Source: Phorcus lineatus
Lineage: Eukaryota > Mollusca > Gastropoda > Trochida > Trochidae
NCBI GenBank assembly: GCA_921293015.1
Contig: OV121094.1
Location: 33,168,054 to 33,232,053 of the forward strand
DNA: 64,000 bases
Direction of reading: 5' to 3'
The position numbers and the translations under genes are program-made. How positions within the stretch are numbered: the first letter of the stretch is position 1; every line of letters begins with the position of its first letter. Positions 20,629 through 63,134 of this stretch are shown here, in pieces. The notes under the pieces are model-generated. The model did no database searches. It saw only the letters and a list, made by a program, of their open reading frames with translations, and was not told the DNA's origin.

Positions 20629-21380
20629 TCACCACGGCCTCCAAACCATATCCTCATGCGCATGTCCATTATCTGGTCTCGAACAAGAATTTCCATTCCC
20701 AAAATTAGGTTTCTCAATGACGTAACTGTTCGCGAAAGATTTTTGTGAAACAGCTTTGACAGGGTTCACGGTCGCGCAGGGCAGATAACTCTTGTCTGTC
20801 CCTGAGGATATGACACATGATTTTGGGAGGTCTGTATGAACTGTTGCTAACAGACCATTGTCTACAGACGTTGTCTGCATAGAAGGCACGGTGCACATTT
20901 TCGTACCTTGAGGTGAGCCAGTAAACACAGGTATCACAAAACCAGGGGTTGGAGTTGCCCGTACAATGTTCGTGGGTAAGACAAAGGCAATTTCACCGGA
21001 AGGAAGTTGGGTAGGAATAACCTGCAGTCCACTGAATACGTTCCCGGATTTGACAGTCTCCAGAGATGGCATGGCGGCGACGTTATTGTTGACGTCAACG
21101 TGTATTGACGGTTCACTACGCGGCGACCAAGAGCGTGAAGTACCATCTTCAGCCGTAACAGACGAAGGCTGTATTTTTTCAGATGACGGCTCTGTTGGTT
21201 TGGATTTGGTATCCTTTTCACCTGCTCCAGATAGACATACGGCAATGTGGTCTAACAATCTTGTCTGCAGGTCGGTGTCGCAACTGTCCATAGACGAGAG
21301 AAAGCGTTTAACTTCCTTCGCACACTCATTGAAACCGAGGCGGTATTTGTTCAGTACAGAAGGGTCTTCCGCAGCTGCTG
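20629..21380 (-). CDS. HES1-like: HES-like exon 4 (Orange domain, tail, WRPW)
   Basis: Acceptor TTTGTAG at 21387-21381. It encodes the Orange domain ([20 protein letters not shown]..., [11 protein letters not shown]), then a low-complexity Ser/Thr/Val/Pro tail with [13 protein letters not shown], and ends [11 protein letters not shown]. An open frame could start at 21390, but its first three codons (MFV) are intron. An antisense frame over 20966-21424 is a shadow. Confidence 0.95.
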
Positions 21381-23249
21381 CTACAAACACAATAAATTCG
21401 ATTATATGTATTGTATTATGTTAAAGAGTTTTCTTTATCTTTTAATGTTAATAGATGTCTACTGAGTGGTCTCTTAAGATTTAACATATACATGTACATG
21501 CAACCATTAAGAATTCATTATTACACTTAATGTCTTTGTCTTAATTAAATGAAGGAGACGATAGGAAAGCGTGATAAACATGCACATGTAACCTTTGAGA
21601 TTTAATCACTACACTTATGATGACTTAAGAGTTTTCACTTTTATATAGATCTGTCCATCAAATATTTACATCGGTCTCATTTTCATCCAAACATCCTAAT
21701 AAATGGCACTTATTACTATTCAATGAACATCGAAAATACTCTTATATAAGTCTAAAAGCCAAAATCACGATTACAGTTAACATAACAAATATTTATATAA
21801 CTTCTATATAAGATCACCTAAAATATATATGTTGCTTGCTTTAGATAAGTTTCCAAAATCACGACTAATTGACGCGCGTCCGGATTTCGATCAAAATGGT
21901 AACTTTATACCTGATTCTCTCGGATTACTTTCTTAAAACATTCCTTATCCCCTGAAAGACATGTTGTCGACATTGGGGTGATTTAAAGATAAATTTGAGT
22001 GTTTTTCGTATACATGTGTTCTGCCAAACACCAATCGCTATAATTTGTAGGCAAATACTCTACTGTATAAAAATAATCAGGGAACTAAAGTTTTTTATAC
22101 TTGTCACTGCAAACGTGACATTCTCACTACAATGTTCTTTTGCAGATTTTCAAAATTCATGAGATTACTAAAGGTATTGTAATCGAGTTGCACTTTACAG
22201 AGAAATCTTTCATTCCTCTTGGCTATTGTAAACACGAGAAAGAACTTCAAGTGCAATTTGATAATACCGTAATGCATTGGCCGTTTTCACTTTCTCAAAA
22301 CTTCTAAGCATAGCCCGAATTCCTTTATAAATTGAATTTCGAAATAAAACCTAATACCTCAAATCCATTTAAACCTTTGAGTTTGCGACAGCGTTATTTC
22401 TCCTTTTAAAGACTGACCTAACCACTCAATAGTGCGACCACCAAGCGCTCTCTGCACAGATCAGGTCACGTGGTAACAGGTACGCTTTTCTTTGATCTCG
22501 CCGTTCATCTCACCTGTAAACTGCTGTCTCTGTATTTGACGTAGATGTTTCACAGTCATTTCTAGGATATCGGCCTTCTCCATCTTATTGTGTCGAGTAC
22601 CCTGGCAGAAGTGAATCGAGGACATGAGAGGTCATTCAGAAAAACCACTGCGCGTTAGGGCTTATACAAGCAAAGCGTGGGAACAGAAAACTTTGAGCTA
22701 TCAGTAGATATACTGAACCTATGTTGATAAGTATTGTGTTGTTGATACACTTATACCCGTACATTCCACGATGGATAATTAGATGTAAATCCGAGCATGC
22801 ACATACATATAAGTAAAGCGGATTATACATAATGTTAAGCTGAAATGAGAATACTGATTCATAAATGTAAAGTGGAAAACGCAAACAGTGACAGATATAT
22901 GAAATGCTTAGCATGTGAATAGTGATAGATAGATGTCAAGCTAACGAGTATAGGCACATGGAATGCCAAGCATGCGATCAAGGATATATTTGTGTATGGC
23001 TAAACTCTGAAAGAGTGAAAAAGACGTGTAATTCCGAGCCTGCACATATGGATATTTTCCTGTTAAACCAAGCAAGAAAGCAGTGCTTGATTGATGTAAA
23101 ACCAAGCATAACAGTGCTAATAATTGTAAATCTTAGCATGGGAAGAATGATAGAAAGATGTCAATTTAAGCAAGCGAACCAGGATGCATATATGTAAAAG
23201 AAGGCATTCGAACATAGAGAAAAACCTAAGCATAGATAGATAGATAGAC

Positions 23250-37577: not shown

Positions 37578-38712
37578 ATGAATACGGATGAGTATAGTAA
37601 CGAAAAATGGTTCTATAAAGGAAATAGATTTGAGACAACAACCTCATATAAATACTTAGGTGTACATTTTACGAATCATCTTTCTTGGTCAATACACATA
37701 TCACAGGCATCTATGCAAGCAAAGAAAATATTGATAGGTATCATTAAATACATAAATATTTTGGGTATCTTGTCTTACAATTCGTTTTTCAAAATTTTTG
37801 ACACAAAAATAACCCCAATATTGTTATATGGTGCAGAAGTCTGGGGCTTTAAATCATTTGATGTTTTAGAAAAAGTTCATTTGTATGCTTGTAAGAGATT
37901 TCTAGGTGTAAAAACCGCCACATCTAATTGTATGGTTTATGGAGAATGTGGGAGATACCCATTATATATCGAATCAAACATTAAAATCATAAGGTACTGG
38001 TTAAGACTGTTAACAATGCCGTCATACAGATTACCAAGAAAATGTTACAACATGATGTTACTATATGATAGCCACAGTAAACATAACTGGGTAACACACA
38101 CTAAACAATTATTATTTTCTATCGGCTTCGGTAATGCTTGGCATAAACAATTCGTAGAATCGCACTCCCGTTTTATTTGCCTAGTTAAACAAAGACTTAA
38201 AGATATATTCCTACAAAACTGGTCAGCTAGTCTGTCACTATCTAACAAATGTTTCTACTACAAAATGATTAAAGATTCTATCTATTCAGAACATTACCTT
38301 TCGGTCTTAACGATAAGAAAATACAAATCTTCACTAGCAAGATTACGCTGCTCTTCTCATGATTTATATATTGAAACTGGGAGATACCAAGGAATCTTAA
38401 GAGAAAACAGAATATGCCAAATGTGTGATCTAAATAAAGTCGAGGATGAATATCATTTTTTATGTGTTTGCCCAGCATACAATTCTTTAAGAATTATGTA
38501 CATAAAGAAATATTTTTATAAGCACCCTGATATTAATAAGTTTATATCTCTTATGAATAACCAAAGTAAATCACATTTAGAAAATTTGTCCATTTATATA
38601 CACAAAGCGTTTATGTTTAGAAAGAATGTGTTACTACCTGTAAATGTATAACTATGTACTATGTACTACAGGCCTGTGGCCTCTCAGTATGGAAATAAAG
38701 TTATTAGTTATA
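37578..38712 (+). mobile_element. 5'-truncated LINE: C-terminal part of reverse transcriptase ORF plus 3' tail
   Basis: An uninterrupted 357-codon frame (37578-38651) encodes the thumb and C-terminal region of a non-LTR retrotransposon ORF2. Seen: SYKYLGVHFTNHLSWSIHI, ILLYGAEVWGFKSFDVLEKV and RFLGVKT, all typical of this region, then a zinc-knuckle-like C-x2-C-x9-H-x2-C around residues 280-296 (RICQMCDLNKVEDEYHFLC). The 3' tail has a GGCCTGTGGCC hairpin (38671-38681) and an AATAAAG. The fingers/palm catalytic motif and endonuclease are missing, so the copy is dead on arrival, but the open frame suggests a fairly young insertion. Jockey/CR1-like affiliation is likely, not proven. Confidence 0.85.
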
Positions 38713-41040: not shown

Positions 41041-41670
41041 TTAAACGCACTAGTGCACACCGATATTTCTTTAACACAACGAATGCACAGATACTGCATA
41101 TCTCTCGATATTATTCAAGAACCTCACTCAAATAATCTACCTCGTAAGTTATTTAACGAATATTTACGTATTCAGGTAGTAAAGTTGATTTTTGAAGACC
41201 GGAAGTATTTAATGTTACGGTACAATAAATCCGCATGAACTACGATATCGGAAATATTAAGATTTTGCTTATAACCAAAAAAGCAGAAACGGCAGCCGCT
41301 TTGGTCAATCTAATAACAATGCTAATACCGTGTTATCAAATCGGTTAATTTACAACATTGCTTTCATAAAACATATTTCATGATTTGTTCTCAGTTCAGA
41401 GTTTAGGTAAATTCAACAGCTGCACATAATAAGTGTTCAGCCGCTTTCAACTGTCTATAATTTATCCGTTTAGTGCACAGCTAACCTTAGATTTGTTATA
41501 TGTCCAAGCCGACAGCGGCTGCCTAAATTTTTTCATTGTTGATTGCAGGTCAATTGTAAAGAATTTTAAGTATTTCATTGCATCGATAGAAAGCTTAAGT
41601 GATTGCATAAGTCCTCTTAAACCTTAAAATAGCCAATTTAAACCGTAAAAGCGTGCACTAGTGCCTTTAA
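41041..41670. mobile_element. TTAA-bounded MITE, copy A (630 bp)
   Basis: Begins TTAAACGCACTAGTGCAC and ends GTGCACTAGTGCCTTTAA; the terminal inverted repeats match at 17 of 18 positions. TTAA at both ends fits a piggyBac-type target duplication. There is no transposase frame, so it is non-autonomous. The interior (GATATCGGAAATATT, CAAGCCGACAGCGGCT) is shared with the 60 kb copy. Confidence 0.8.
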
Positions 41671-47160: not shown

Positions 47161-47573
47161 GGTGAGGTGATATGGTGTTTAACGCCGGTCTCAAGAGTAT
47201 TTCACTTATCGCGGCTGCTAGTATTATTGCAAGGAGAAGCCCGCGATACCACTGTGGCTATGCATTGCGGTGAAAACTACGAGCACCGGCTGGAACTAGC
47301 GAACAATGAGTGGTACTGTGCTGACTTTATGGGGGTAGTGCCATGGGAGAAAGCCCGCAACACCACTGTGGCTATGCATCGCGGTGAAAAATGCGAGCAC
47401 CGGCTGAAATTAGCGAAACATGGGTGGTACTGCACTGAAAATCACTGTATCATTGTACCCAAACCTGACTGCGTCTAGAACAGTTTTCTACTGCAGACAA
47501 AGATGCCGAGCCCCTGGCGGGATTCGAACCACGGACCTCTTGATCCGAAGCCGAACGCGCTAACCACGGCCCA
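47161..47573 (-). mobile_element. Full-head SINE copy with internal duplication
   Basis: Flanked by TGTTGGTATCTGTA (47147-47160) and TGTTGATATCCGTA (47574-47587), a 14-base duplication with two differences. The minus strand shows the whole tRNA-like head: GTGGTTAGCGCGTTCGGCTT (A box side) and GGTTCGAATCCC (B box). The middle of the element (CCCGC...CACTGTGGCTATGCAT...GGTGGTACTG) is present twice in tandem, at about 47248-47320 and 47352-47430, making this copy about 130 bases longer than its relatives. Confidence 0.85.
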
Positions 47574-49750: not shown

Positions 49751-49792
49751 ATGAAGTTGGTGAGACCTCATGGAAGAATTCCTGCTATAGGA

Positions 49793-50108
49793 ATGAGGAA
49801 AGTTTTTCTGGCAGTTTTTGTTTTTTCACATATGCTGGCTTTGGCAGCTTTGGACAGCATTAACATGCAATTCGATAAGGCAGGTGATTTGCTTCATCCA
49901 CAGACCGCTGAGGGTTTTGTGAATACTATTGCTATAAGAGCAGATTGTGCCTCCAAATGTTTCAGGAATGTCAGGTGCTGGAGTTTCTACCACAACCCAT
50001 CAGATGATACCTGTTTCCTCGCCAACCCTGACCAAGTCGTCGAACCTGATACAAGCTTTCCTGACATTGCGTCAAATAGGTTTGATTACTACACAACCCC
50101 TACAACAC
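49793..50108 (+). CDS. Signal peptide and PAN/Apple-like domain exon
   Basis: An open frame starts at 49751, but the ATG at 49793 gives a standard signal peptide (MRKVFLAVFVFSHMLALAA); I prefer it. The mature part begins LDSINMQFDKAGDLL and has four cysteines in DC-x3-C-x5-C-x11-C spacing with the WSFYHN...DTCFL pattern of PAN/Apple domains. The exon ends TACAACAC|GTGAGT, phase 1. Residues 15-33 of the longer frame equal the signal peptide, so the longer start would bury it behind 14 residues. Confidence 0.78.
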
Positions 50109-53100
50109 GTGAGTTTTCTTAAGATCATGGAATAGACACTTTTGGAATTTATTTTTGTTACTACATACAAATATGAGGAAAGCTCACGTACCCCCGCACC
50201 AGGATATTTGTCATAGGACATAGATTAATTTGTTATTTAAATATCGATACACAATTCGAAAAAGAAAATCCTTATTACTACCAACATCGGAAATTTTATT
50301 CCCTTATATTCAACCGTCTAATTGGCAATCATACCTGGCATTTGCACCAAGTTAAATCACAGATTCAAAGGCAATTAATTTGTAAAAATTACGTTTACAT
50401 CGTAATTCAAACTCAAAATTATATTCACTTGCATGTAATATTTTCAGATATTTTTTGCTAAACTGGAACATAAGACCAGCAATTCGCATCAAGTGCAATT
50501 TAAGCTGCAAGTACCACAATTCTGCGAAAATGATATTTTTGAATCGGCTTTCAATTTCAATGACGATCGAGAATATAGTCAGGTGTATGAACAGTCTAAT
50601 TTCCGTTGATATAGTTTCAGTAGTTTTCGAGAATACTTGTCCCCATTGAAGCGTTACACCAGTACACCATGCACTTTACAATTACAGCTAACTCATGATA
50701 CACAAGTGTGCAGGTTCAGTTGATTTACACCTGATGGTTTTACGAAAATTGACCGGACGGAAGGACGAAGGGACGGAATAACTGCTTTTATCGTCGGTTA
50801 AGATTTCACAGCACTCTTGTCTTAGTGCTAAGATGATACCATACGTAAATGTAGTGCCCATACATAAATGTAGGCTTACCACTCTCTTAGTGCTAGTGAC
50901 CCAAGCGAGTAATTCAACAAGTTTAAACTCCTATTAGGCACGATGTTTTTTCCACAACTGATCTACGGTTGAGCAATGTCTTTTGGTATAACTATTGATT
51001 AAACAATCATCCTTTTATCTTAAAAAAGAAAACTATCAATCGTTAATGTAATAATGCCAGTGTAATAACATTATGTTACATTCAACATTCAACGATTTAC
51101 CTTCAGACCTTTTGTTTGTTTTGTTTTTATATCTAAAGAATCTCACCCAAGTTGTCTTTTAATATACTTTTAAGTAATCAAGAATTACAAGTAAGATAAG
51201 ATAACAAACAAAAATAGCTTCCCGAGGATTGTATTTCAACTTTATTCCACGAGTGTCAATATACATGTACTGACAAAAGTTTGTAACATCACTTGTAAAC
51301 TTTTTTCCCCTATTTTCTCAGTTCAAAGATAATTTTTTACAAGTCTTTACAATCATTCAAATAAACTTTAATCTGTCTTCATTTCTACATATGAATGATA
51401 CTTGTCATCCATAATGTACACATAGATTGGGATTTCAGATAATTGTCCTTCATATTATTGATGGTCTATAATGATATAAAGATTGATACTACCCTTGCAA
51501 ATCTTTCACCTTTGGTGTCGATGTTTGTTTAATACAAAGTATTTGTTGTTTTTGGTTTTTCTCTATTTTTATTATCTCTTTTAGAGATTTGTTAGAATTT
51601 TTAAATGTAGGAATTTTCCTTCTTATCCTCATATAATGTATGTATTTCTTGACTTGTAGAATAAAATTGCTAAAAATGTAATTGGAGTCTTGTAAGCCCA
51701 AAAAAGACTATAAACTTAGTGAAGACAAAATCGGGTATTTTGTCTTTTTAGAACATTTCTAATCGAGACCAGAATTTTTTATTATATGCTTACAATAATA
51801 AAACATTTTCTTTTTCTTCCATACAAAACTAACATATATCTTCATCAACAATTTTCATGTACAGCAACTCACGCTTGGTGTAAATTTTCTTATGAATTGA
51901 TCCGTATTGGAAATCAATCAGTTTACATCTTTTGTACGTTTTCTAAATCTAGCAAATACACATTTTCAGTTAATCGTTTCAGGAAATTGGGTTTGCCATT
52001 TAACACTGACTTTTGGTATATTGTCTTTCTTTATCAAGATGTCATAAAAGCATCTACAACTAAGAGGTTTAAGCATTTCCCTAATGATTCTGAAATATTA
52101 ATATTTTCATTTAAGAAAATATTAACATTTTATATTAATGTGAAAATTTAGTATAGGGCCTTTCAAATCATATTTATTTTTCAATTGTTCATTTGACGTG
52201 GATTTGTGAAACTTGTGTTCCAAAATGTTAAAACTCAAGAAGTATTGTCTTCTAAAATATTCAGTTTAGAATAAGTTTGTCTGTAATGAACAATACATAT
52301 CTCATAACGTGGCTCATCTTTGTCGAAATACTGCCGGATACGAGTTTAATTGATATGTTATTGTAGAAGTATGAAAATCTTAAAATATTTATTTTGACCA
52401 CCATGTTTCAAGGCATATGCTAGAATTGTCTGCGGCCAAACGAACATGTGTTTACCCTGTAAATATTGAGTAACTTTGAAGCTTTTACGAAGCCTATACG
52501 AATATATGAAGCCCATAAAAAAAGTATCGTCTATAAGGTGTTCTGAAAAGAAATTGGGCCTTTTACAAAAAATCTATGAATGACGATTTTACATAGGAAC
52601 TTATGAACAGTATGAACAACTTTTGTTGAGCAGTTGTATTTAATTTCAGGAAACACGCGAGCAATATTCTCTGTATCAACAAAATTCAGCGTTCAAGAAT
52701 TATCACAAATATAATGAATCTTTTACCATGATTTCGTCATTAGGATTCAAATCTCATTGAAATCAGGTCGAAACTTGTCTCTCGTACCTCGCTGCGAAAT
52801 GCGAAAGGCAGCGAGGTACAAGAGACAAGTTTCGAGCTGATTTCAAAATGGATTGTTAGGATTTTAAGCAGTGAGCTCATACATTACATGTAGGTAGCTT
52901 TGTAAGGTGATTATGACGTCAATGCTTGTTAGGTCGTCAACTTCGTGACGTCATCTCATTGTTTTGTGTGATGATGCAAAGCGTTATGATACTTTGAGTG
53001 TTACCTGCCGTATCTACAATGTATATATCGTTTGTAGATAACGTTTGAAATGAGTTGGTCTCATACAAATGAATCTACTGTTGAAGCCAGTTTTGGATGA

Positions 53101-54692
53101 TGAGTTCATATATGACAAACATATTATAGTTGTTTTTATAAAAGAAAACTATCAGTCCAATCAATTAAGGTGATGCAACCTACATTGTTTAATTATGGTG
53201 GAAAAAAACTACAGTTTAATTTTTGTCAAATAACACAAGGATAAACACATGCTTGAAAGAGTGGACCGCTTATTATACACTGCTTTTCATTACTGAAAAA
53301 GATATACATTTTACTTTACTTACATACTTGACTTTACGGTACTTGTGAAACCTTCTAAACGCTCAACCCCAACCTAAGCACATTGAATTAATTATTCATA
53401 GTCAAATAACGTTATATGTAAATGTAAACATCTTTATTTGTAAACATTTTCTATCTTTTCATCAATATTCATTGGCAAAATTTACATACCAAAGTCATTA
53501 GAATACAATTATTAACTTAAGCTGTTGTTGTTCGCTTTTGAACGTCATCGAAGCGACCAAAACTGATAAAGATTGACTCACAATGGTCATATCTCGGGAG
53601 AGGGTACTTCTAAATCTGTACGATAATTTAGAAAAGCAAAGTTACCGAAGGATGGATAAATAACCTTGTTTTATCTAAAACATACTTAACACTTATCGAT
53701 ACGCATGAAATTAAAGGTATTTTCCGAAACTGGTTTCGATCAAGGAAGAAATCAATTTGAATAGAGAACAAGTTATATGGATTTACAACTTCATTATTGC
53801 AGGATCTACACCGAAATGTCGCAATCCTGCAATAAAGAAGTTGTAAATCCATAAACTTGTTCTCTATCCATAAACTTGTTCTCTATTCATCTCACCAATG
53901 CAACATCTACGTGCCTCTCAAAGAAGTCAGAAAAAAATTTGCAAACTTGTGTCATTGGGTATCGAATGCAAATGAGATGCACATGATGTAATATCGCATA
54001 TGCGCAAACTAGGAGTATTCGAAACGCACTGGGCTGCTGACTAAAGTAACCTAATGCTGAATGTGTCGATGCCCTTCACATGATATATACAACCCCTGGG
54101 ACTATTCATCAGGATAGTTTGTACTCAAACTACACGCACTTTGTCATGAAACAGCAACCAAATGAGACGGAGAAAACATGAGTTGTTGAATTGTAACCTA
54201 TCCTTTACAGCGCATGCTAAGGGACTTGCGTATAAAATTTCAATTCAACGTGAACACGATAGTGAGAGCTTAAAATTTGGATTTCAAAAAATGTCTCAAC
54301 ACAAGATTAACAGCCATGGAAGTAGTAATGATATTAATAGTAGTTTTAGTAGTAGTAGGAGTACGTAGTAGTAGCAGCAGTACTAGTAGTACTAGCAGTA
54401 GTCGTATTTGCAGTAGTAATTAGTCGTAGTTGTAGTAGTAGTAGCAGGCAGGAGTTGTAGTAGCAGTAGAAGTGGCAGTAGTAGTAGTATGAGGAGTAGT
54501 AGTAGAAGCAGAAGTAGAAGTAGTACTAGTAGAAGCAGTTGTAGTAGTAGAAGTAGTAGAATCAGTAGTAGACGTAGCAGTAGTAATAGTAGTAGTAGAA
54601 GCAGTAGTAGAAGTAGCAGAAGTAGAATCAGTAGTACAAGTAGTAGTAGTAGTAGTAGTAGTAGAAGGAGTAGTGGACGAAGCAGCAGCAGC

Positions 54693-54724
<32 letters not shown>

Positions 54725-54873
54725 AATCAGTAGTAGAAGTAGTAGTAGTAGTAGAAGGAGTAGTGGAAGAAGTAGCAGCAGCAGTAGCAGTAGTAGTAGT
54801 AGTAGTAGAAAGAGTAGGAGTAGTAGAAGGAGAAGTGGAAGAAGCAACAGCAGTAGTAGTAGTAGTAGTAGGT

Positions 54874-54913
<40 letters not shown>

Positions 54914-54983
54914 AAGCAGTAGTAGTAGTAGTAGTAGTAGAAGAAGGAATAGTAGAAGGAGCAGTGGAAGAAGCAGCAGCAGC

Positions 54984-55021
<38 letters not shown>

Positions 55022-55107
55022 AAGCAGTAGTAGTAGTAGAAGTAGAAGTAGTAGTAGTAGTAGAAGCAGTAGTAGTAGTAGTAGTAGAAGTAGTAGTAGA
55101 AGTAGTT

Positions 55108-55138
<31 letters not shown>

Positions 55139-55188
55139 AAGTAGTAGTAGTAGTAGAAGCAGTAGTAGTAGTAGTAGTAGTAGTAGAA

Positions 55189-55270
<82 letters not shown>

Positions 55271-58200
55271 AAGAAGAAGGAGAATGGACAGGTCGTCACA
55301 GAAGCAGTACTATATAGATTTAGTAAAGATTTAAAAGAGAGAGTTGCACTGTTTTAGGTTACATGAAGTGTTTTAATCAGATGCACTGTTGAAACAACTG
55401 AACAATGATCAGTTTAGTTAGGCGAATCAAATTTTCTATGATGAATATATGAATATGATATGCATGATTGAAAGGACCTGGTGTTCACACAAAAACCGCC
55501 TCTAGTTATTTTTTCTTGATACTTGATAACCCACGCATGATTGGGTTGAGTAATGAGACGGGTTTACCCTCTGAAAATTATACCTTAGACATAAACAAAA
55601 GGTTATTGCGGAATATTTGAAGCAATTAATCGTTCAAAGAACTTGCTACCTCCCCTTTTCATAGAAAACGTCGTGAAGTTATTTGCCTTGCCTTGCCTTG
55701 TATGGAACAGTCAACAAAAAAGCTCAATTTATAATGTTATAAGGTCTACACAAAAGCACATCGAAAATAATAAACCGTCGACCATTCCTATTAAATAGAA
55801 ACGGCTGCAGTAAGAGCCCTTTTCCTGTTTCCTTTATATGAAAAACACTATAGACTATTAAAACTAAATACTTAAATAAAGAATACTAGTCACCACACGA
55901 TGAGCATGATTATAGAACCAATATCATCCATCGATTCATTTTAGCAACTTATATCTAATACCTACTTGAAAGAGAATACTTTTTGACGTTTAAGACATGT
56001 AACATTTATAACTAGATTAATAAAATCAATACTGTTAATGCCAAATAATGGTAATATATATAAGATGCCTCCGAGGCAGTGCATTTCTAATCGCCCAACG
56101 TCTCTATTGTTGCAAACAATCCGAACGATTCGACTCGCCAGGATAGACGAATTCCACAATGAATACCTCGTTGGTGTTTGTAGCTGATCAAGCTGCACGA
56201 AAGCAAATGAAATATTAAAAGGAAAGATAATTTATCAAACATATCGTAGGCAATAGGTTAGTTGGTGTATTTACATGCTTTTTCAACACAATGCTTTAAA
56301 CATATAAGATAGCAATCAAACAAAAAATAGAAAATCGGAACTCGATATCAGGATTAATCAAAGGAAAAGGAAAAATGACTTTGTAAAGTCATAGAGGATA
56401 CTTAACGACCTTCCATTTCATACTATTTCTGTTAAACTAGTTAATTATTAAGTATAAAACGAGCGAAAGCGAGTTTAATAAAAGTAGTGTTTAATTGAAG
56501 GAAGTTTAGTATTCTCTTTATTTCTTGACCTCAGTTATCAAGCATGATTGCCGAAAGTGTACTGAACAAAACATTTCCGCGACTTGGCCAACATTGTGAC
56601 GTCACAACCACACTATATTATGACGCCATACTACCAGCTGGATTACACTAGTTTAATATCGCCGTAAAAATATTACACCGCAGTATCCTACACGGTCGAG
56701 TGAAATTAGAATTTAAAATAATAATGAAAGTTATAATGTACATGCAAATTCATTTATATATTCTACTTTGGGGGATGGGGGTGTATTGGAAATCTTGCTA
56801 GGAAGTTAATCAAGCTTTCGTTTGGCATTGATGAAACCTGGCAACGCGTTCCTGATTCCCAGATGAGTTAGCTTCTTCTGCCTTTGTTCTAGACAGGTGA
56901 TTCGGAATGGTGAAATAATGGTAGGAACTTGAGATTTAACGCCTCAATGATCATTCATACATGTATTTGTTTATTTTATGTTACGAACAGTGTACAAAGA
57001 TTAGCGCAATATTTGTACATATTCCATTTCAAGTTCATGTTATTTATCGCACGATTCTTTAAGTTCTACATGATAAGAGTTGTATACAACAGGTGGATAT
57101 TGAATGTGTATTGAGGCCAAGAAAGGCATACAATGAGAAAAATAAAATTCAAATCAAGTAAGATAAATGTACAGCTGCATACCAAATGTTTCTTCATATA
57201 CCTGCGCATCGTAGTGCAAATATCATGTAAATTTGCATATGATGAAGCATCGTAGCATTGCGAAAAAGAAACGGATAATTTAAGAATATTCAGTAGGGTA
57301 GTGAAGATCCACTGCACCTTAACGCAAGCGTATGCCATACCCAACAATTAACCTTATTAGTTTTTGCCAGGTCATTGAAGTGACCGGGGGTTAAAATTTC
57401 GAAAACAGTAAATTTTATTTCCCCCTACAAAATCCTTTATAAGTGATCAACAGCTTTAAAAACAAGTCATGTCTGTTTCGTTTGTATCAAGTCAATTATG
57501 ACTTTGCTGAATGTTTTCTCAGAGAGTCAAACTGGAATATTTTAATCGAAATTTAAGGAAATCGTATTTTCGAAAATGTGACCCCTTCTGTCTTTTTAAT
57601 GACGCAAAAATTCGAATTTTGGCATGAGAGACTAGAAGATCCCAGAATAAGTTAGGCAATGGCTATTTTATACATTTACAATTGGAGATTCTTTGTCATT
57701 TCTGCTGATGTTTTATTGACGTTCGACCCAAACCCAAATTTCATGATAATTGCGCTAAGATACAGTACTATGTGAACAAACTTTTGATATGCAGCTGTAT
57801 ATTGGTGTTATAAAACTTCATTCGTACTCAATCGATTGTGGATTAAATATCTGGACGAGGATGTGATTGGAAAGGTCAGATTTAGGTGAGAACACTTAAA
57901 ACATTTCGGTTCCATTTCATTTGTATATGATACAATGCGATTTCAAAATGAATTGTTTACGTTTTATACTTAGCTTGTATCCAGATCAATACAAACCTGC
58001 TTGAAATTTGACATAAAAGTATATAAATTTCAACAGTTTTTTCAGAATCCAGACCTAAGCATAACCCTCTCGAAACCTTACAAAGCCAATTGCAGTGTTC
58101 ATTTCGTACTTCTGGCATCTTTTAACAGGCTTGGGGTTTTCCATTGGAATAGCGGTTAATAAAACAACACCATCATCGAACAATATCTTTATTACAACCA

Positions 58201-61200
58201 TAGAAAACAAAAGTTAGTGTGTAAACAGGCGGTTTGAGAGGGAAAAGAGTGCAATAGTGCCTATGACTATCCACAATCACATCATGCCTAACAATCTTTT
58301 GTTGCCTCGTTATGGCTGTGCAAACCTATCCTTCTGCTTACTCATATTCTTTCTCAATCCGACCGTTGTGTAGCTTTTGCTTTCCTCTAGCTCCTTAGCC
58401 CTGATAAGTCTATCTCATTGCATGAAGACAATAGTTTTCTTGCTATATTAACAAGATGTTCCCATTATGCTGAAATCTTTTCTAGCGCCAACATCCTGCC
58501 TTGACGTCCAGAACTTTGGAGTAAACGTCGACGGGGAATACTGGCTGTACCCCAGTAGTACTGAAGGTCGCGGGTTCAAGGTCTACTGTCATGGGATGGG
58601 GACGGGGTCACCGACAGAATACATCTCTTTATACACCGAAAACTTTGGGGATTACCCCCTAGAATGTAATTTAAACTGCAATGGAGAGAAAACTACCGGG
58701 TGTCCGTCTGGCGACGTTGGGCACGTGGAGTATCGAAAAATCAGAATTGATATAACGGTGAGATATTACCTTTGAAAAAGATTCCTTTGACATATTTTGT
58801 AAAATACTGAATGATAAAAAATAGAATTTCTACTCATTGTGATGAAAGAACCATGATATGATTCTTAAAGTGGCAGATGATTGGGTATTTTTCTTGAAAT
58901 ATTCCCCCATTAAGGAAATGTTCATGCCAAATTTATCTTTAGACATGTCAAAACATTTCATTACTCCGACCAATCATCCTTAGATGTAGAGGAAATAATG
59001 AAACATCAGGCAAATACCACTGGCAGCAATTTGTATGAACACGTTTTAATCATTTGAGTTAGTAAAATGGGCTTGCATAGCTTAACCGATCATGGTATGT
59101 TCTTAATTGCTTCTTCTGATAAAATAACATCGTCTTGAAATTTGAAACATTTTTTTCGAATCATGAGGTTAATTTATCGATCTAAAACACGAACAAATGT
59201 CCCTTTAATGTCCAAATTATCAATGGAGTATTCAGATCGCAATATTTATCTATGACGCCCTCAGATAAGAAATTTTTCCCTCTTTGAAAAACGGATTTTA
59301 TCCTCATTGTGTGTCTCAAAAATATTGTATTCTTGTAGACAATGAACGTTGTGAGAACAGACAAGACGTTTGCCAGTGGTACAGGGGTATTCGCTGATTA
59401 CGGAAGTGCAAAAGACGCTTATAATACCCACTGGGGGTCGAGAAGCCCGCCCTACCCATGTGGACCCAAGGGACAATTCCAGATGGACCTGACAGGGACA
59501 AACTTACGCTTCAATGACCAGGTTTGCATTCACATGGTTTCTTTCAGAGAGACGTAAGCTATTGTCTTGAACATGTAGGTTAAAGGGGCATTAGCAAGTT
59601 TTGTTAAAGATTCATTTCTTCTTTTTTTCCGAATAAACATCAGTCTTTGTCAAATGTATCATTTAAGGAGGGTCAAAACATTTAATTACTCAACCGAATC
59701 AGCCGTATTTGCACAGTAAATAATCAAGTATCAAGTAAAAGCCACTTATTTTCAGACAAAACAACAAATGCGATTTTTAACCTCTTGATCAATGACACAA
59801 ATTCTTAAACTAACAACTTTTTTGTGCTTTTTATAATATATATTCAAACGAGTTATATTTCATTTATTAAACTATATTCAGACGAATTGAGAAGTAAAAA
59901 TACAAAGAGAAATATCACGATGTGAGTCAAAAAGCACAAACGTTTCATTAAGAGCAATGACCACTTTGTAATGAGCGTAAAACTCCTTACTTTGTACTGG
60001 CGATGCTGTATCTTAAATTGAAAAGCAATTGTCAAGCGTCAACGGCATATTTTTTCGTCATACTGTATTCATCATCCAAATCAAACAAAGCCTTTCAAAG
60101 TAATCACCATTAATAATGTCACAGCTACATGTATAACGCATGTTTGATGTTAAACGCACTAGTGCACACCAATATTTCGTAAACACAACGAATGCACAGA
60201 TACTGCATATCTCTCGATATTACTCACGACCTCACTCAAGTAATCTAAATCGTAAGTTTTTTAACAAATATTTACGTATTCAGGTAGTAAAATTGATTTT
60301 TAAAGTTTTTAATTCAACGTAACTTTAAATACGCATGAACTACGATATCGAAAATAATAAAATTTTGCTTATAAACAGAAAATCGGAAACGGAAGCCGCT
60401 TTGTCAATGTAATAACAATGCTTATGTGCTGTGTTATTAAGTCGGTTTATTTACAACATTGCTTGCAAAAAAAACATATTTCATTCTTTGTTCTCAGTTC
60501 AGAGTTTAGGTAAATTCAATAGCTGCACATAATACTAGTTCAGTCGCGTTCAACTGTCCATGATTCATCCGTTTTGTGCACAGCTAACCATACATTTTTT
60601 ATATGTCCAAGCCGACAGCGGCTGTCTAAACTTTTTCATTGTTGATTGCAGGTAAATTGTAAAGAATTTCAAGTATATTTCTTTGCATCGATATAAAGCT
60701 TAAGTGAATGCATAAGTCCTCTTAAAGCTAATTTAAACCGTAAAAGCGTTCACTAGTGCCTTTCAAATTTTAAGGCAATTTACCAAGCCTTACTGCGAAT
60801 CTCGAGTATGAATTTTCTACTTTTAGACCACGTGGACTGCATATGGTTACAAGACTTTTAAGGCAGTTACATGGAACAACGGAGGCAGTACAGTTCATGT
60901 ATTATGCGGTGGTTGGAGTGGTGGATGTACACCCAACTTCATTAAGTTGGAAATCAAACCTTTAGCACGTGAGCACTTTAACTTTGAGTAAGTGACTTAT
61001 TGTTCAGTGCCGTTTTGGCAACAATTTAGCCCTAAGCGGAGTGAAATCCAAAGAAATTGAAATGTAAAAATAAAATTTTTTTGAATTTGTATGTAATATG
61101 TAAAAGGTAAAAAGGTGCAAACTTATGTCATCCAATGTGCATATTCGTAGGTAAAAGAGATTTGTTTTTATTACTCATTAAGTAGGTCAGCCATTCGTCA

Positions 61201-63134
61201 CCATCAAGTAATCATCTTAAAAATTGGCGCAAGACTATTCAATGAAGTTAGACAAATCAGTTATATCTTGGCTAAGATAATTGAATAATCTATGTGATGA
61301 TGTGTGAACAAAAAGGAAACATGAATGAAGAAGAGTTTTTAGCTTATGAGGTTAGCAGTTCAAATATTAGGACACGGGTCATTGATCATCGCTCTTCGGT
61401 CTCTCACACCGGCTTATAGTTGCGGTTTTGGGTGAGGGGAATTTTTTTTACAAACGGTCAATTGCTTGCATATTGCGCAAAATGGAATAAAATAAACGTT
61501 TGTGGTTTAACAAACATTTGTATATATACTACACTTTACAGTCTAGTTTTATTACAGACAGACAGACAGACAGACAGTATTCATTCAGTATTTAAGGCCA
61601 TGGCCCAAATTACAATAACTATTACAAATCCATTTGCTGCTGGTAAACTTGTAACAAGATACAAGTTGCAGGAATTGGACAAGCGTCCGTAAAATACCTG
61701 GAAGATTACATGGAAAACATATAAATTTAAAGGCTACGATTAGATGCGATGCGTTTTCCGTCGACGCCAAATCTCGATCCATTAGGTTTTGCGGTATTAT
61801 TACAAAAATAATCTATAAGCAGTAGAATGATTCCATAATACCCTGAGACTTCCCTGGTATCGCTATAAATAGATATTCAATGAAATTCCAGCAATTTTGG
61901 CAGTTCCCGGAAGTAAGGTCCGTTAAGTTCGGGATATTATGCCTGCAAAACGACCTTTTCTTGGCTAAGCTTGTTGAATATAACGATGGGTAGCCAGTCG
62001 TCAGCGATGCGGTTAAGGCTATAAGGGAATTAAAGGAAACTAATATGTATAATGCCCTGATTGAGTTAGATAAAAATAACATGTATGTCCGTCCAGTTAT
62101 ATTTATATCAATCAAAATATGTATACCCAGTGCCTAAGACGTGTCTGGAAGTGAAGACCTGTGGCAACACAAACGCCAATGGCGAGTACTGGATCAACCC
62201 AAGCATCTTAGGAGAGGCACAGATCAAGGTTTATTGTGATGGTATGGACACCGGGACACCTAAAGAGTTCATCACTCTACACAACAGCAACTTCGGCGAC
62301 TACCCGCCGGAGTGTAACCTCAACTGTAACGGCGAATCTACCTCAGGATGTCCTTCCGGCCCTGTCGGACATGTTGATTACTCCAAAATCAGGCTGGATG
62401 TTTCCGTAAGTTACAATGAAACACCCCCCCGCAAGACATCTCAATCACTGGCGTAGTGCAAGGACTTACTGCTTTTCCTCTACTTTTCGTTGTACGCTCT
62501 TCAGCCTACTTTAGCTGAGCTTGATAGTGGATAGAAATATTCTTTTGGCGTAATGCAGCAATGTGCATAAGCCAGTGAGGGAGAAGTATTCTTTACATCG
62601 AGACGCTCAGGTGATCTTTTCATCAAAATCCATGTAAATACTGTTTTAGTTAATGGTAGCTTTATACTATAACATTTCGGAGAACGAACATCTTTCTTGC
62701 AATATCTTTCATTATTCTGATGCAACTCCTCTGCTGATTAAAATTCTCTAGTTTCAGTTTTTGTAGTTTCTGTGTAGTGTTGGTGGCGGGATAGCATAGT
62801 GGTAGGCGCGTTCGGCTTCGGATCAAAGGGTCCGGGGTTAGAATCCCGTCAGGGGCTCGACATCTTTGTCTGCAGTAGAGAATCACTCCACTGAATATCA
62901 GTCCAGCACCACCCATGATTCTCTCGCATACAGTTCGTATTTTCTTCACAGGATATGAATGTGATAAAAACCGATAAGACCTTTACATCTGGTACCGGTG
63001 CCTTTGCCAACTATGGGGAAATCAGGGACTGTTACAACACGATATGGGGAACGCCCAGCCCTCCTTATACTTGTGGGCCAAAGGGGGAGTTTCAAATTGA
63101 TGTCACAGGCACAGGGTTAAAATTCAACGACCAG
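49793..63134 (+). CDS. Secreted PAN/Apple-GON-GON protein (six visible exons, 3' end outside window)
   Basis: Proposed join: 49793-50108, 58486-58757, 59339-59521, 60827-60968, 62131-62405, 62952-63134. All junctions are GT-AG and in frame, giving at least 457 residues. Order: signal peptide (residues 1 to about 19), PAN/Apple-like domain (about 25-100), GON domain 1 (about 106-304), GON domain 2 (about 305 to beyond 457). The GON domain is best known at the C-terminus of ADAMTS9/ADAMTS20 metalloproteinases; no protease or thrombospondin repeat is visible here. PAN domains bind proteins or glycans. Inferred role: extracellular adhesion or matrix protein. The 8.4 kb first intron could hide a missed exon, or the PAN exon could belong to another transcript; matching phase 1 ends favour one gene. 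Confidence 0.75.
51235..51700 (-). mobile_element. Probable LINE 3' remnant
   Basis: The minus frame at 51700-51489 (GLQDSNYIFSNFILQVKKY, then IHYMRIRRKIPTF...LKEIIKIEKN) resembles the extreme C-terminus of CR1/jockey-type LINE ORF2 proteins (a K-Y-I-x3-R-x4-IP-F pattern). On the minus strand it is followed by a noncoding stretch ending GGAATAAAGTTGAAATAC near 51240. It is truncated upstream by a stop. Assignment is by pattern recollection only. Confidence 0.45.
52758..52845. repeat. 38-bp inverted repeat (hairpin)
   Basis: Arms 52758-52795 and 52808-52845 match at 36 of 38 positions with a 12-base loop (CTCGCTGC / GCAGCGAG at the stem top). Not obviously related to the 46.8 or 53.8 kb palindromes. 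Confidence 0.85.
53759..53890. repeat. Inverted repeat related to the 46.8 kb element
   Basis: Left arm 53759-53805 and right arm 53824-53867 are near-identical inverted copies (GGATTTACAACTTC against GAAGTTGTAAATCC). The central ACACCGAAATGTCGCAATCC and CAATAAAGAAGTTGTAAATC match the 46.8 kb copy. A CCATAAACTTGTTCTCTAT unit is duplicated at the right end. Confidence 0.6.
54320..55275. repeat. Long AGT-type trinucleotide array (about 0.95 kb)
   Basis: Almost every triplet is AGT, with scattered AGC, AGA and TGT variants and a pure stretch near 55195-55265. Long open frames on both strands (poly-Ser/Arg, poly-Val, poly-Leu, poly-Tyr) are artefacts of the repeat. It is intronic in the PAN-GON gene. 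Confidence 0.97.
56390..56690. repeat. CRE-bearing dispersed repeat, copy 2
   Basis: Same order as 6934-7245: CATAGAGGATACTTAACGAC, CCTTCCATTTCATACTATTT, ACGAGCGAAAGCGAGTTTAA, GTGACGTCAC (palindrome at 56597) and TTACACTAGTTTAATATCGC. A looser third trace appears at about 12190-12290 (GTCACAATGTTGGCGTCACT, CTAGTTTAATAC). Confidence 0.6.
57170..57799. mobile_element. Tc1/mariner-type MITE, long copy (630 bp)
   Basis: Starts TACAGCTGCATACCAAATGT and ends ACTTTTGATATGCAGCTGTA. It shares its left half with the 44768 copy (CGTAGCATTGCGAAAAAGAA, CATTGAAGTGACCGGGGGT) and has about 300 extra bases. No transposase frame. It sits in the PAN-GON first intron. Confidence 0.75.
58486..58757 (+). CDS. GON domain 1, first exon
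   Basis: Acceptor TTTTCTAG at 58478-58485; starts phase 1 (C|CG = Pro when joined to the PAN exon). It encodes TSCLDVQNFGVNVDGEYWLY, then KVYCHGMGTGSPTEYISL, NFGDYPLECNLNCNGE and GHVEYRKIRIDIT. Conserved GEYW, VYC-x-GM, C-x3-C pairs and the Y-x-KIR-x-D motif mark the N-terminal half of a GON domain. Donor GTGAGA, phase 0. Confidence 0.88.
59339..59521 (+). CDS. GON domain 1, second exon
   Basis: 183 bases, 61 codons, phase 0 at both ends (acceptor CTTGTAG, donor CAG|GTTTGC). It encodes TMNVVRTDKTFASGTG, YNTHWGSRSPPYPCGPKGQF and MDLTGTNLRFNDQ. It has the same length as the second exon of GON domain 2. Confidence 0.9.
60150..60765. mobile_element. TTAA-bounded MITE, copy B, inside PAN-GON gene
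   Basis: Same family and orientation as 41041-41670, starting TTAAACGCACTAGTGCACAC and ending GTTCACTAGTGCCTTTCA, so the right end has decayed. It fills nearly half of the intron between GON1 exons 2 and 3, which explains why that intron is long. Confidence 0.8.
60827..60968 (+). CDS. GON domain 1, third exon
   Basis: 142 bases; acceptor CTTTTAG at 60820-60826, donor CAC|GTGAGC, phase 0 in and phase 1 out. It encodes TTWTAYGYKTFKAVTWNNGG, then VHVLCGGWSGGCTPNFIKLE and IKPLA, which is the C-terminal part of a GON domain with its last two cysteines. It has no ATG, so it was found by eye between the two modules. Confidence 0.87.
61548..61610 (-). mobile_element. LINE 3' tail fragment (hairpin plus TCTG repeat)
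   Basis: On the minus strand: GGGCCATGGCC (61606-61596), CTTAAATACTGAATGAATAC, then (TGTC)n and AATAAAAC. This is the same layout as the tail of the 34 kb LINE remnant. The GACA microsatellite at 61556-61577 is part of it. It lies in the PAN-GON gene between the two GON modules. Confidence 0.55.
62131..62405 (+). CDS. GON domain 2, first exon
   Basis: 275 bases, acceptor TATACCCAG, donor TCC|GTAAGT (phase 1 in, phase 0 out). It encodes PKTCLEVKTCGNTNANGEYW, IKVYCDGMDTGTPKEFITL, NFGDYPPECNLNCNGE and DYSKIRLDVS. Clearly homologous to the 58486 exon, with more than half of the residues identical by eye, so an intragenic duplication that is not very recent. Confidence 0.88.
62783..62925 (+). mobile_element. 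SINE fragment with tRNA-like head, opposite orientation
   Basis: On the plus strand: GGCGGGATAGCATAGTGGTA (A-box-like TAGCATAGTGG), GCGCGTTCGGCTTCGGATCA, GGGGTTAGAATCCCG (B box with one change), then CATCTTTGTCTGCAGTAGAG. It is the same family as the 47 kb copy. It lies in the intron between the two visible GON domain 2 exons. Confidence 0.82.
62952..63134 (+). CDS. GON domain 2, second exon
   Basis: 183 bases, acceptor CTTCACAG, donor CAG|GTAAGA, phase 0 at both ends. It encodes DMNVIKTDKTFTSGTGAF, CYNTIWGTPSPPYTCGPKGE and IDVTGTGLKFNDQ. The matching third exon (about 142 bases) is not seen in 63135-64000 and should lie to the right. Confidence 0.88.

Follow-up and report, generated by a model that had tools for sequence, protein, structure and literature searches.

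The GON domain is familiar chiefly from ADAMTS9/20-type proteases (PMC4349717), which it caps and which belong to a matrix-remodelling family. In C. elegans, a signal sequence joined to GON, without the protease, corrects the defective secretion and insulin signalling of gon-1 mutants (PMC4517882). The PAN/Apple domain, in turn, is organized around 4–6 core cysteines (PMC9249922). Here, we analysed a 64,000-nucleotide stretch of the genome of the gastropod Phorcus lineatus (the window), for which a sequence-only reading had proposed exons joining in frame into signal peptide, PAN/Apple, GON and GON, with no visible protease or thrombospondin repeat (TSR).

The proposed exons do join: the six exons inside the window (Table 1) form a single frame of 1413 nt without a stop, with end phases 1/0/0/1/0/0 for exons 1–6, that encodes a putative signal peptide, PAN, GON and GON. 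A Pfam search of the 471-residue conceptual protein, suggested in that reading as a check, placed both domains above their gathering scores: GON (PF08685) at 186.9 bits against 22.6 (5.2e-55, in two stretches, GON1 covering profile positions 2–190 of 199) and PAN/Apple (PF00024, PAN_1) at 30 bits against 21.4 (9.2e-6; 4.8e-7 for exon 1 alone). The gene does not end at 63134, as had been supposed; a third GON2 exon lies past the window edge. No stop or frameshift interrupts the seven exons, and an in-frame stop stands just 5' of the ATG. Exon 3 forms part of a 4e-32 Pfam GON match once the exons are joined, and exon 4 scores 1.9e-10 with a custom GON model that includes its own row. Against a generic splice consensus, the splice sites vary in quality: the acceptor ahead of 62131 is poor, with 52% of window AGs scoring equally well, and the donor that follows 62405 is mediocre (10% of GTs). 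Downstream, no Pfam domain was found in the 8 kb 3' of GON2. A Thr/Pro-rich linker lies between PAN and the GONs. The tRNA and Rfam scans returned no features.

Table 1 Exons and first intron of the PAN-GON-GON gene, in window positions
Feature	Position	Strand	Details
Exon 1, putative signal peptide and PAN/Apple	49751..50108	+	start codon 49751 or 49793; phase-1 donor ACAC/GTGAGT
Intron 1, 8377 nt	50109..58485	+	contains TAG-triplet array 54338-55270 (TRF)
Exon 2, GON1 first half, fibrinogen/COLFI-like N-terminal motif	58486..58757	+	phase 1 to 0; Pfam GON 2e-11
Exon 3, GON1 middle	59339..59521	+	phase 0 to 0; Pfam GON 2.4e-4 alone, just below cut-off
Exon 4, GON1 last part	60827..60968	+	phase 0 to 1; Pfam GON 2.1e-3 alone, below cut-off
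Exon 5, GON2 first half	62131..62405	+	phase 1 to 0; Pfam GON 9.7e-12
Exon 6, GON2 middle	62952..63134	+	phase 0 to 0; Pfam GON 2.8e-5
Exon 7, GON2 last part	64776-64917 in the window frame, past the edge (C29:33232829-33232970)		142 nt; phase 0 to 1

The PAN cysteines are Cys 66, 70, 76 and 88 of the joined protein. Exon 1 scores 1.1e-13 with a custom PAN model (which includes its own row), and a PAN exon 45% identical to it was found at C29:14.887 Mb, likewise 5' of GON exons. The putative signal peptide was judged by eye from a hydrophobic stretch (Kyte-Doolittle mean 2.26 over 10 residues), which appears as a helix in a low-confidence, single-sequence AlphaFold model of the PAN exon (pLDDT 61). 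A phmmer search of the PDB with the PAN exon gave one weak match (0.7).

The two GON modules agree in exon length (272/183/142 for GON1 and 275/183/142 for GON2) and share 96 of 151 aligned residues; exon 5 alone matches exon 2 in 54 of 91 alignment columns. The modules are sisters in the tree (support 100/99). Their nucleotide differences fall at third codon positions in 98 of 170 cases, with pN 0.23 and pS 0.90 (pN/pS 0.25, an average over the whole time since duplication), a pattern by which the copies are judged to evolve as protein, under protein-level constraint. The introns of the modules, in their window portions, lack extended similarity, with 17 bases as the best match. Each GON is a three-exon, phase 1-1 module, GON2 having probably arisen by an old internal duplication.

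A search of the 958 Mb host genome recovered at least 98 GON matches. Some copies are broken, since 13 of the 98 carry internal stops and at one locus (L007) PAN is split between two frames. The PAN-exon/GON-exon splice phases of the window gene recur at three loci, L047, L048 and L050, with PAN-to-GON introns of 363, 2947 and 1570 nt; with exon edges picked by eye at GT/AG sites, a PAN exon ending in phase 1 is followed by a GON exon that begins in phase 1 in all four of these short-form genes, and no convincing exon after GON is common to the window gene and L047. Two further loci, L049 and L051, are long multi-exon forms. PAN-GON is not universal, because at eight multi-exon loci (L021–L028), where the GON exons found are cut at the same positions as those of the window gene, the 9–10 kb fetched revealed neither a PAN nor an EGF or Sushi exon. 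Among 33 intronless GON frames, Pfam detected GON in 33, Sushi in 32 and PAN_1 in 29; many of these PAN-EGF-Sushi-GON genes look retroposed. A same-strand PAN lies within 2 kb 5' of GON at 24 of 77 GON units and within that distance on the 3' side at none. Within 15 kb, PAN accompanies GON at 29 of 77 units (random mean 0.17, maximum 4 in 1000), 23 of the 29 being closer than 1 kb and mostly intronless paralogues, which are not independent events. In all 11 chosen intronless pairs, dN/dS is below 1 in both parts, and neighbouring paralogues appear to have exchanged segments. No GON-like gene was confirmed in viral or prokaryote contigs.

The expectation that a free-standing multi-GON protein would be an unusual architecture holds in one respect: a double GON behind a single PAN was seen clearly only at the window gene, and it is this doubling alone that is unusual. 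The gene is not an isolated oddity, because the PAN+GON architecture is recurrent and expanded in the same genome. On its sequence, it belongs to a large family of GON proteins that lack a protease, a family apparently not yet described; literature searches gave no description of a protease-free PAN-GON family among the matches listed. This family would take in PAN-GON genes that are short and multi-exon, multi-exon genes of the PAN-EGF-GON and PAN-EGF-Sushi-GON types, and numerous PAN-EGF-Sushi-GON genes without introns.

Over its first ~40 residues, GON is similar to the N-terminal motif of fibrinogen and collagen propeptides, as judged with two HMM libraries and with the PDB, and the Cys...GEYW...VYC element of the fibrinogen/COLFI superfamily is present in GON. 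Pfam COLFI matches the joined protein above its cut-off (2.4e-6) and exon 5 alone below it (8.2e-5), while NF040941 matches exon 2 (2.4e-4) and exon 5 (9e-7), both below its curated cut-off. Among the 33 intronless relatives, COLFI was found in 5 (best 2.2e-5) and NF040941 in 22 at E up to 0.01, below the curated cut-off where bits were shown. A 26-row GON profile matched a collagen III propeptide in the PDB (3.1e-4); the GON-to-PDB alignments stop near residue 45, covering ~40 of 200 residues. GON1 alone, queried with phmmer, gave only weak oxidoreductase matches (best 0.23), and the sequence searches of the PDB found no GON domain among solved structures.

Might the PAN exon and the GON exons be parts of separate genes, or might GON be part of an ADAMTS? 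Intron 1 is 8.4 kb long, and matching phase-1 ends would by themselves arise by chance one time in three. Nevertheless, L047, L048 and L050 repeat the order of a PAN exon followed by GON exons in the same phases, and a search of intron 1 at strict thresholds turned up no other exon that pairs a signal peptide with a phase-1 donor (a weak test, as the control strand also gave none). A Pfam scan of the + strand for upstream ADAMTS parts covered intron 1, where no domain exceeded its cut-off in the three frames, and 29.8–49.75 kb, where again no domain exceeded its cut-off and no protease or TSR was found; two sub-threshold matches, to a shieldin OB fold in intron 1 (0.0025) and to RXT2_N upstream of the gene (0.034), were taken as chance. 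No zinc-protease motif occurs in the six frames of the window by pattern search, and the 12 spacer matches in the genome include none on C29. The scanned ranges offer no metalloprotease, spacer or TSRs upstream of GON that would make this gene an ADAMTS9/20/GON-1 protease; an upstream ADAMTS as the source of these exons was rejected on these scans and the spacer positions, and the absence of a visible protease or TSR was borne out over the scanned ranges. An ADAMTS-type GON locus lies elsewhere in the genome, on C11, where it has TSRs, a spacer and introns at other positions. We consider a wrongly joined model extremely improbable. A decaying pseudogene is likewise very improbable: the two weak splice sites at exon 5 and the GON matches with stops elsewhere would fit decay, but seven uninterrupted exons argue against it, as does the strong constraint on protein sequence between the two GONs, although it is averaged since duplication.

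We therefore read the window, with a probability of about 0.6, as holding most of a functional gene for a secreted PAN, Thr/Pro linker and tandem GON protein without a protease, a member of a large family whose PAN and GON domains would bind outside the cell. The exon structure, domains, selection, family and N-terminal resemblance are established by sequence; we infer the secretion, binding and ligand class of the protein. The product is most likely a secreted binding protein with a presumed role in recognition or matrix. Once secreted, the PAN and GON modules, both rich in disulphides, may serve as binding heads for extracellular glycans or proteins; GON starts with the element that resembles fibrinogen and collagen propeptides, and two GONs in tandem could provide bivalent binding. 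More tentatively, GON may be a diverged fibrinogen-type recognition domain and PAN-(EGF-Sushi)-GON a lineage-expanded, segment-swapping secreted recognition repertoire, a counterpart of FREPs and ficolins, of which the window gene would be a bivalent form. A structural component of extracellular matrix, mucus or shell matrix, in line with the matrix or mucosal role suggested in the sequence-only reading, seems rather doubtful. The putatively secreted, cysteine-rich, multidomain protein, the occurrence of GON in ADAMTS9/20 and a linker that could, by eye, be O-glycosylated are compatible with it, yet the joined 471 residues hold no N-glycosylation sequon and, by eye, no collagenous, low-complexity or acidic stretch, and an expanded, diverged family would be less typical of a structural component. 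The worm rescue construct would favour a protein that carries the known activity of GON-1 without its protease, in which GON serves ER-to-Golgi transport inside the secretory pathway and PAN does no more than space or sort; this is unlikely, as housekeeping transport hardly explains so many GON matches, many of them diverged, with variable Sushi and EGF additions, or segments seemingly exchanged between neighbouring paralogues.

Dozens of natural protease-free GON genes, one of them with a double GON, are material for asking what GON does without a protease and for testing its ligand and fold, for which the fibrinogen-like start offers a concrete structural hypothesis. Were the recognition-repertoire reading true, protease-free GON would be the common state in this lineage, not the exception. 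Automatic naming may label such genes 'ADAMTS gon-1', which would mislead functional readings; a gene so named is reported in a clam GWAS (PMC12123719).

Compared with described systems, the window gene shares with ADAMTS9, ADAMTS20 and nematode GON-1 the GON domain as a C-terminal module of a protein that is secreted, here putatively so, but it has PAN at the front and two GONs, no metalloprotease, disintegrin-like, spacer or TSR parts were found, and its intron positions differ from those of the ADAMTS-type GON locus of the same genome. With PAN/Apple proteins (HGF, plasminogen, prekallikrein/factor XI and nematode PAN proteins) it has in common PAN_1 with four cysteines, without the kringle, serine-protease or other partner domains of those families in Pfam. 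Fibrinogen-related proteins and fibrillar collagen C-propeptides (COLFI) match the ~40 residues starting GON through the Cys...GEYW...VYC motif, whereas the remaining ~160 residues have no detectable similarity to either. The PAN-EGF-Sushi-GON genes read at 31 intronless loci of this genome differ in lacking introns, in carrying EGF-like and Sushi domains in between and in having a single GON; as in the window gene, PAN comes first and GON last, and many have the fibrinogen-like GON start.

Six forward-strand exons of the window join into a stop-free frame of 1413 nt with end phases of 1, 0, 0, 1, 0 and 0. The sequence-only reading had predicted from them a conceptual protein with PAN and two GON stretches, and a Pfam check bore this out: the joined 471 residues matched GON in two stretches (5.2e-55) and PAN_1 at 9.2e-6, or 4.8e-7 when the PAN exon was queried alone. 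Taken singly, all five GON exons matched GON (2e-11 to 2.1e-3), with two falling short of the cut-off. An in-frame stop lies directly 5' of the first ATG; by eye, the hydrophobic N-terminus looks like a signal peptide and a Thr/Pro-rich segment separates PAN from GON. Scored against a generic consensus, the splice sites are mixed, with a poor exon 5 acceptor, a mediocre exon 5 donor and the remaining sites among the better-scoring GT/AG sites of the window. Intron 1 carries an array of about 310 TAG triplets (54338-55270).

Exons of the predicted PAN-GON-GON gene; window positions unless a contig is named
Feature	Position	Strand	Remark
Exon 1 (PAN)	49751 (or second ATG 49793)-50108	+	joined open frame
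Exon 2 (GON1)	58486-58757	+	joined open frame
Exon 3 (GON1)	59339-59521	+	joined open frame
Exon 4 (GON1)	60827-60968	+	joined open frame
Exon 5 (GON2)	62131-62405	+	joined open frame
Exon 6 (GON2)	62952-63134	+	joined open frame
GON2 third exon	C29:33232829-33232970 (window-frame 64776-64917)	+	142 nt, phase 0 to 1

A genome search located the window at C29:33168054-33232053, which opened its right flank to reading. The third GON2 exon, past the window edge, resembles exon 4 of GON1 in length and phase, so that the module exon lengths are 272/183/142 nt for GON1 and 275/183/142 nt for GON2. On its 3' side, a donor-like GTGAGT is followed a few codons later by an in-frame stop, and either is possible. 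GON2 is probably the final domain, because the proteins of intronless relatives in the same genome end soon after the corresponding point of the alignment, one subgroup within about a dozen residues and the other after about 20-30. Downstream of the gene lie tandem open frames with SAM-like ends (positions 407-861 of the flanking stretch L010, with similar frames in L010 and L011); the SAM-like stretch in the L010 frames scores 0.011 for SAM_2, below the Pfam cut-off.

Elsewhere in the window, a 263-aa open frame (20632-21420, minus strand) matches Hairy_orange (Pfam, 5.8e-13) and is a predicted exon of a HES-type transcription factor. A 357-aa open frame (37578-38648, plus strand) resembles by eye a LINE reverse transcriptase in its C-terminal part and has no Pfam match. 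An 84-bp inverted repeat (47484-47567 and 62799-62882, 89%) has by eye the look of a tRNA-derived SINE; ARAGORN called no tRNA in it.

Within the window, the link between PAN and GON exons consists of order, strand and phase fit, the last expected by chance in one case of three. Intron 1 yielded no domain above the Pfam cut-off in any of the three forward frames and, at strict thresholds, no further signal-peptide exon with a phase-1 donor (the control strand likewise gave none). The assignment of both to one gene, as first proposed, is upheld because the same exon order and phases recur at other genomic loci, and this evidence is decisive. A genome search with the PAN exon matched only itself and C29:14887092-14887334 (45% identical, 4.4e-18), where GON exons start 363 nt further on along the same strand; PAN and then GON exons likewise occur at C29:17.32 Mb (L048) and C37:9.81 Mb (L050). 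In all four short, multi-exon PAN-GON forms read, exon edges having been picked visually at GT/AG sites, a PAN exon with a phase-1 end joins without a stop to a first GON exon that runs from phase 1 to 0; the count comprises these four only, and the PAN-GON neighbourhoods at C37:37.91 Mb and C29:17.34 Mb lie outside it.

GON1 and GON2 are identical at 96 of 151 aligned residues, differ at 40, 32 and 98 nucleotides in codon positions 1, 2 and 3 (pN 0.23, pS 0.90), and share 54 identical alignment columns between exons 2 and 5; their introns, over the part compared within the window, have no extended similarity. This is the pattern of an ancient duplication maintained by protein-level selection. 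A tree of 42 GON rows makes the two sisters (support 100/99) and, with several long branches, gives no settled placing of them with respect to the ADAMTS group or to the multi-exon and intronless groups. In a hand-picked set of 63 rows from the genome's GON matches, 12 same-strand neighbours are spaced by 15 kb or less, and the window pair is the closest spaced except that at L002, which looks broken and whose first GON is incomplete. The other neighbouring pairs that were read have their own PAN, their own intronless frame or, in an array on C25, their own end. Just 3' of the intronless PAN-EGF-Sushi-GON gene at L029 is a partial GON match with a stop (C25:20516298-20516597, minus strand), possibly the remnant of a further double GON.

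Searching the genome with PF08685 returned at least 98 matches at E <= 1e-3 (a lower bound, counted per exon), 13 of them with internal stops; merging within 4 kb on one strand leaves 77 units, a figure that need not equal the gene number. At 31 loci, we read 33 GON-containing ORFs with a length of 200 residues or more. By our own models, built partly from these same rows, 28 of the 33 hold PAN and GON in one frame, each over more than half of the domain model, two have a partial PAN or GON and three lack PAN; Pfam, independent of our models, found GON in 33/33, Sushi in 32/33 and PAN_1 in 29/33. As read, the intronless ORFs start with a signal peptide and PAN, continue with an EGF-like segment and between one and four Sushi, and end in GON; "EGF-like" is our own label, backed by a Pfam EGF domain in just one member. 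Since multi-exon forms exist, with PAN, EGF-like, Sushi and GON each on separate exons (L051) or with PAN, EGF-like and GON (L049), the intronless genes look as if they had arisen by retroposition from an L051-like gene.

A same-strand PAN lies within 2 kb 5' of GON in 24 of the 77 units and 3' in none; within 15 kb the counts are 29 on the 5' side, 8 on the 3' side and 7 on the opposite strand, the 29 comparing with 0.17 on average, and never more than 4, over 1000 random placings. These co-occurrences are a lower bound, PAN scoring having covered 150 of 907 candidates (the window PAN exon not included), and are non-independent, 23 of the 29 being closer than 1 kb and mostly intronless paralogues. 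At L007, PAN is divided between two frames. Eight multi-exon GON loci (L021-L028) gave no match to PAN, EGF or Sushi over the 9-10 kb retrieved; six of them (L021-L026, C25 13.49-13.66 Mb) form a tandem array with identical intron positions. A repeat of about 630 bp, found in the window at 41041-41668 and 60150-60763 (86% alike) and also at L022 and L046/L047 (84-85%), is an interspersed element within or beside several GON genes.

In 11 chosen intronless pairs, dN/dS stayed under 1 (0.19-0.85) for the N-terminal part as well as for GON. L003 and L008 are nearly identical in the N part (dS 0.07) and not in GON (dS 1.15), whereas L005 and L008 have the opposite pattern (0.30 and 0.055); from this discordance, segment exchange or gene conversion appears to have occurred between these neighbours (C15 40.25-40.28 Mb).

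The first 40 or so residues of GON carry the pattern Cys...GEYW...VYC..M. Pfam matched COLFI at the start of GON2 in the joined protein (2.4e-6; 27.5 bits, cut-off 26.2) and in 5 of 33 relatives, and did not list it at E <= 1 for GON1 queried alone. The NCBIfam fibrinogen-like GGGWT motif matched the window GONs at 2.4e-4 and 9e-7 and 22 of 33 relatives at E <= 0.01, scoring below the curated threshold of that model in the rows shown. A 26-row GON profile searched against the PDB gave the collagen III (3.1e-4) and collagen I (1.1e-3) propeptides. The similarity ends near residue 45; these matches support a common N-terminal element of GON and fibrinogen/COLFI, not yet a common fold. A literature search pairing GON with fibrinogen terms returned no match.

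Judged by sequence, the PAN-GON-GON gene of the window is under constraint and belongs to a large family of protease-free genes. The product of the window gene would be a secreted protein that binds through GON as its head, and two heads could confer avidity. It may serve in the matrix or in the secretory pathway; in a study of worm secretion, GON with a signal sequence functions without the protease (PMC4517882). Recognition is our first choice of role, because of the family's expansion and divergence, the segment exchange and the fibrinogen-like GON start.

An ADAMTS-type locus of the same genome allows comparison. On the minus strand of C11, a spacer (29.817 Mb), four TSP1_ADAMTS stretches (about 29.785-29.788 Mb) and GON exons (29.776-29.784 Mb) follow the canonical order; among the genome's 12 ADAMTS spacer matches, none lies on C29. 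The C11 GON has introns near profile positions 64, 105, 140 and 169, unlike the GON of the PAN-GON family, with introns near positions 100 and 153.
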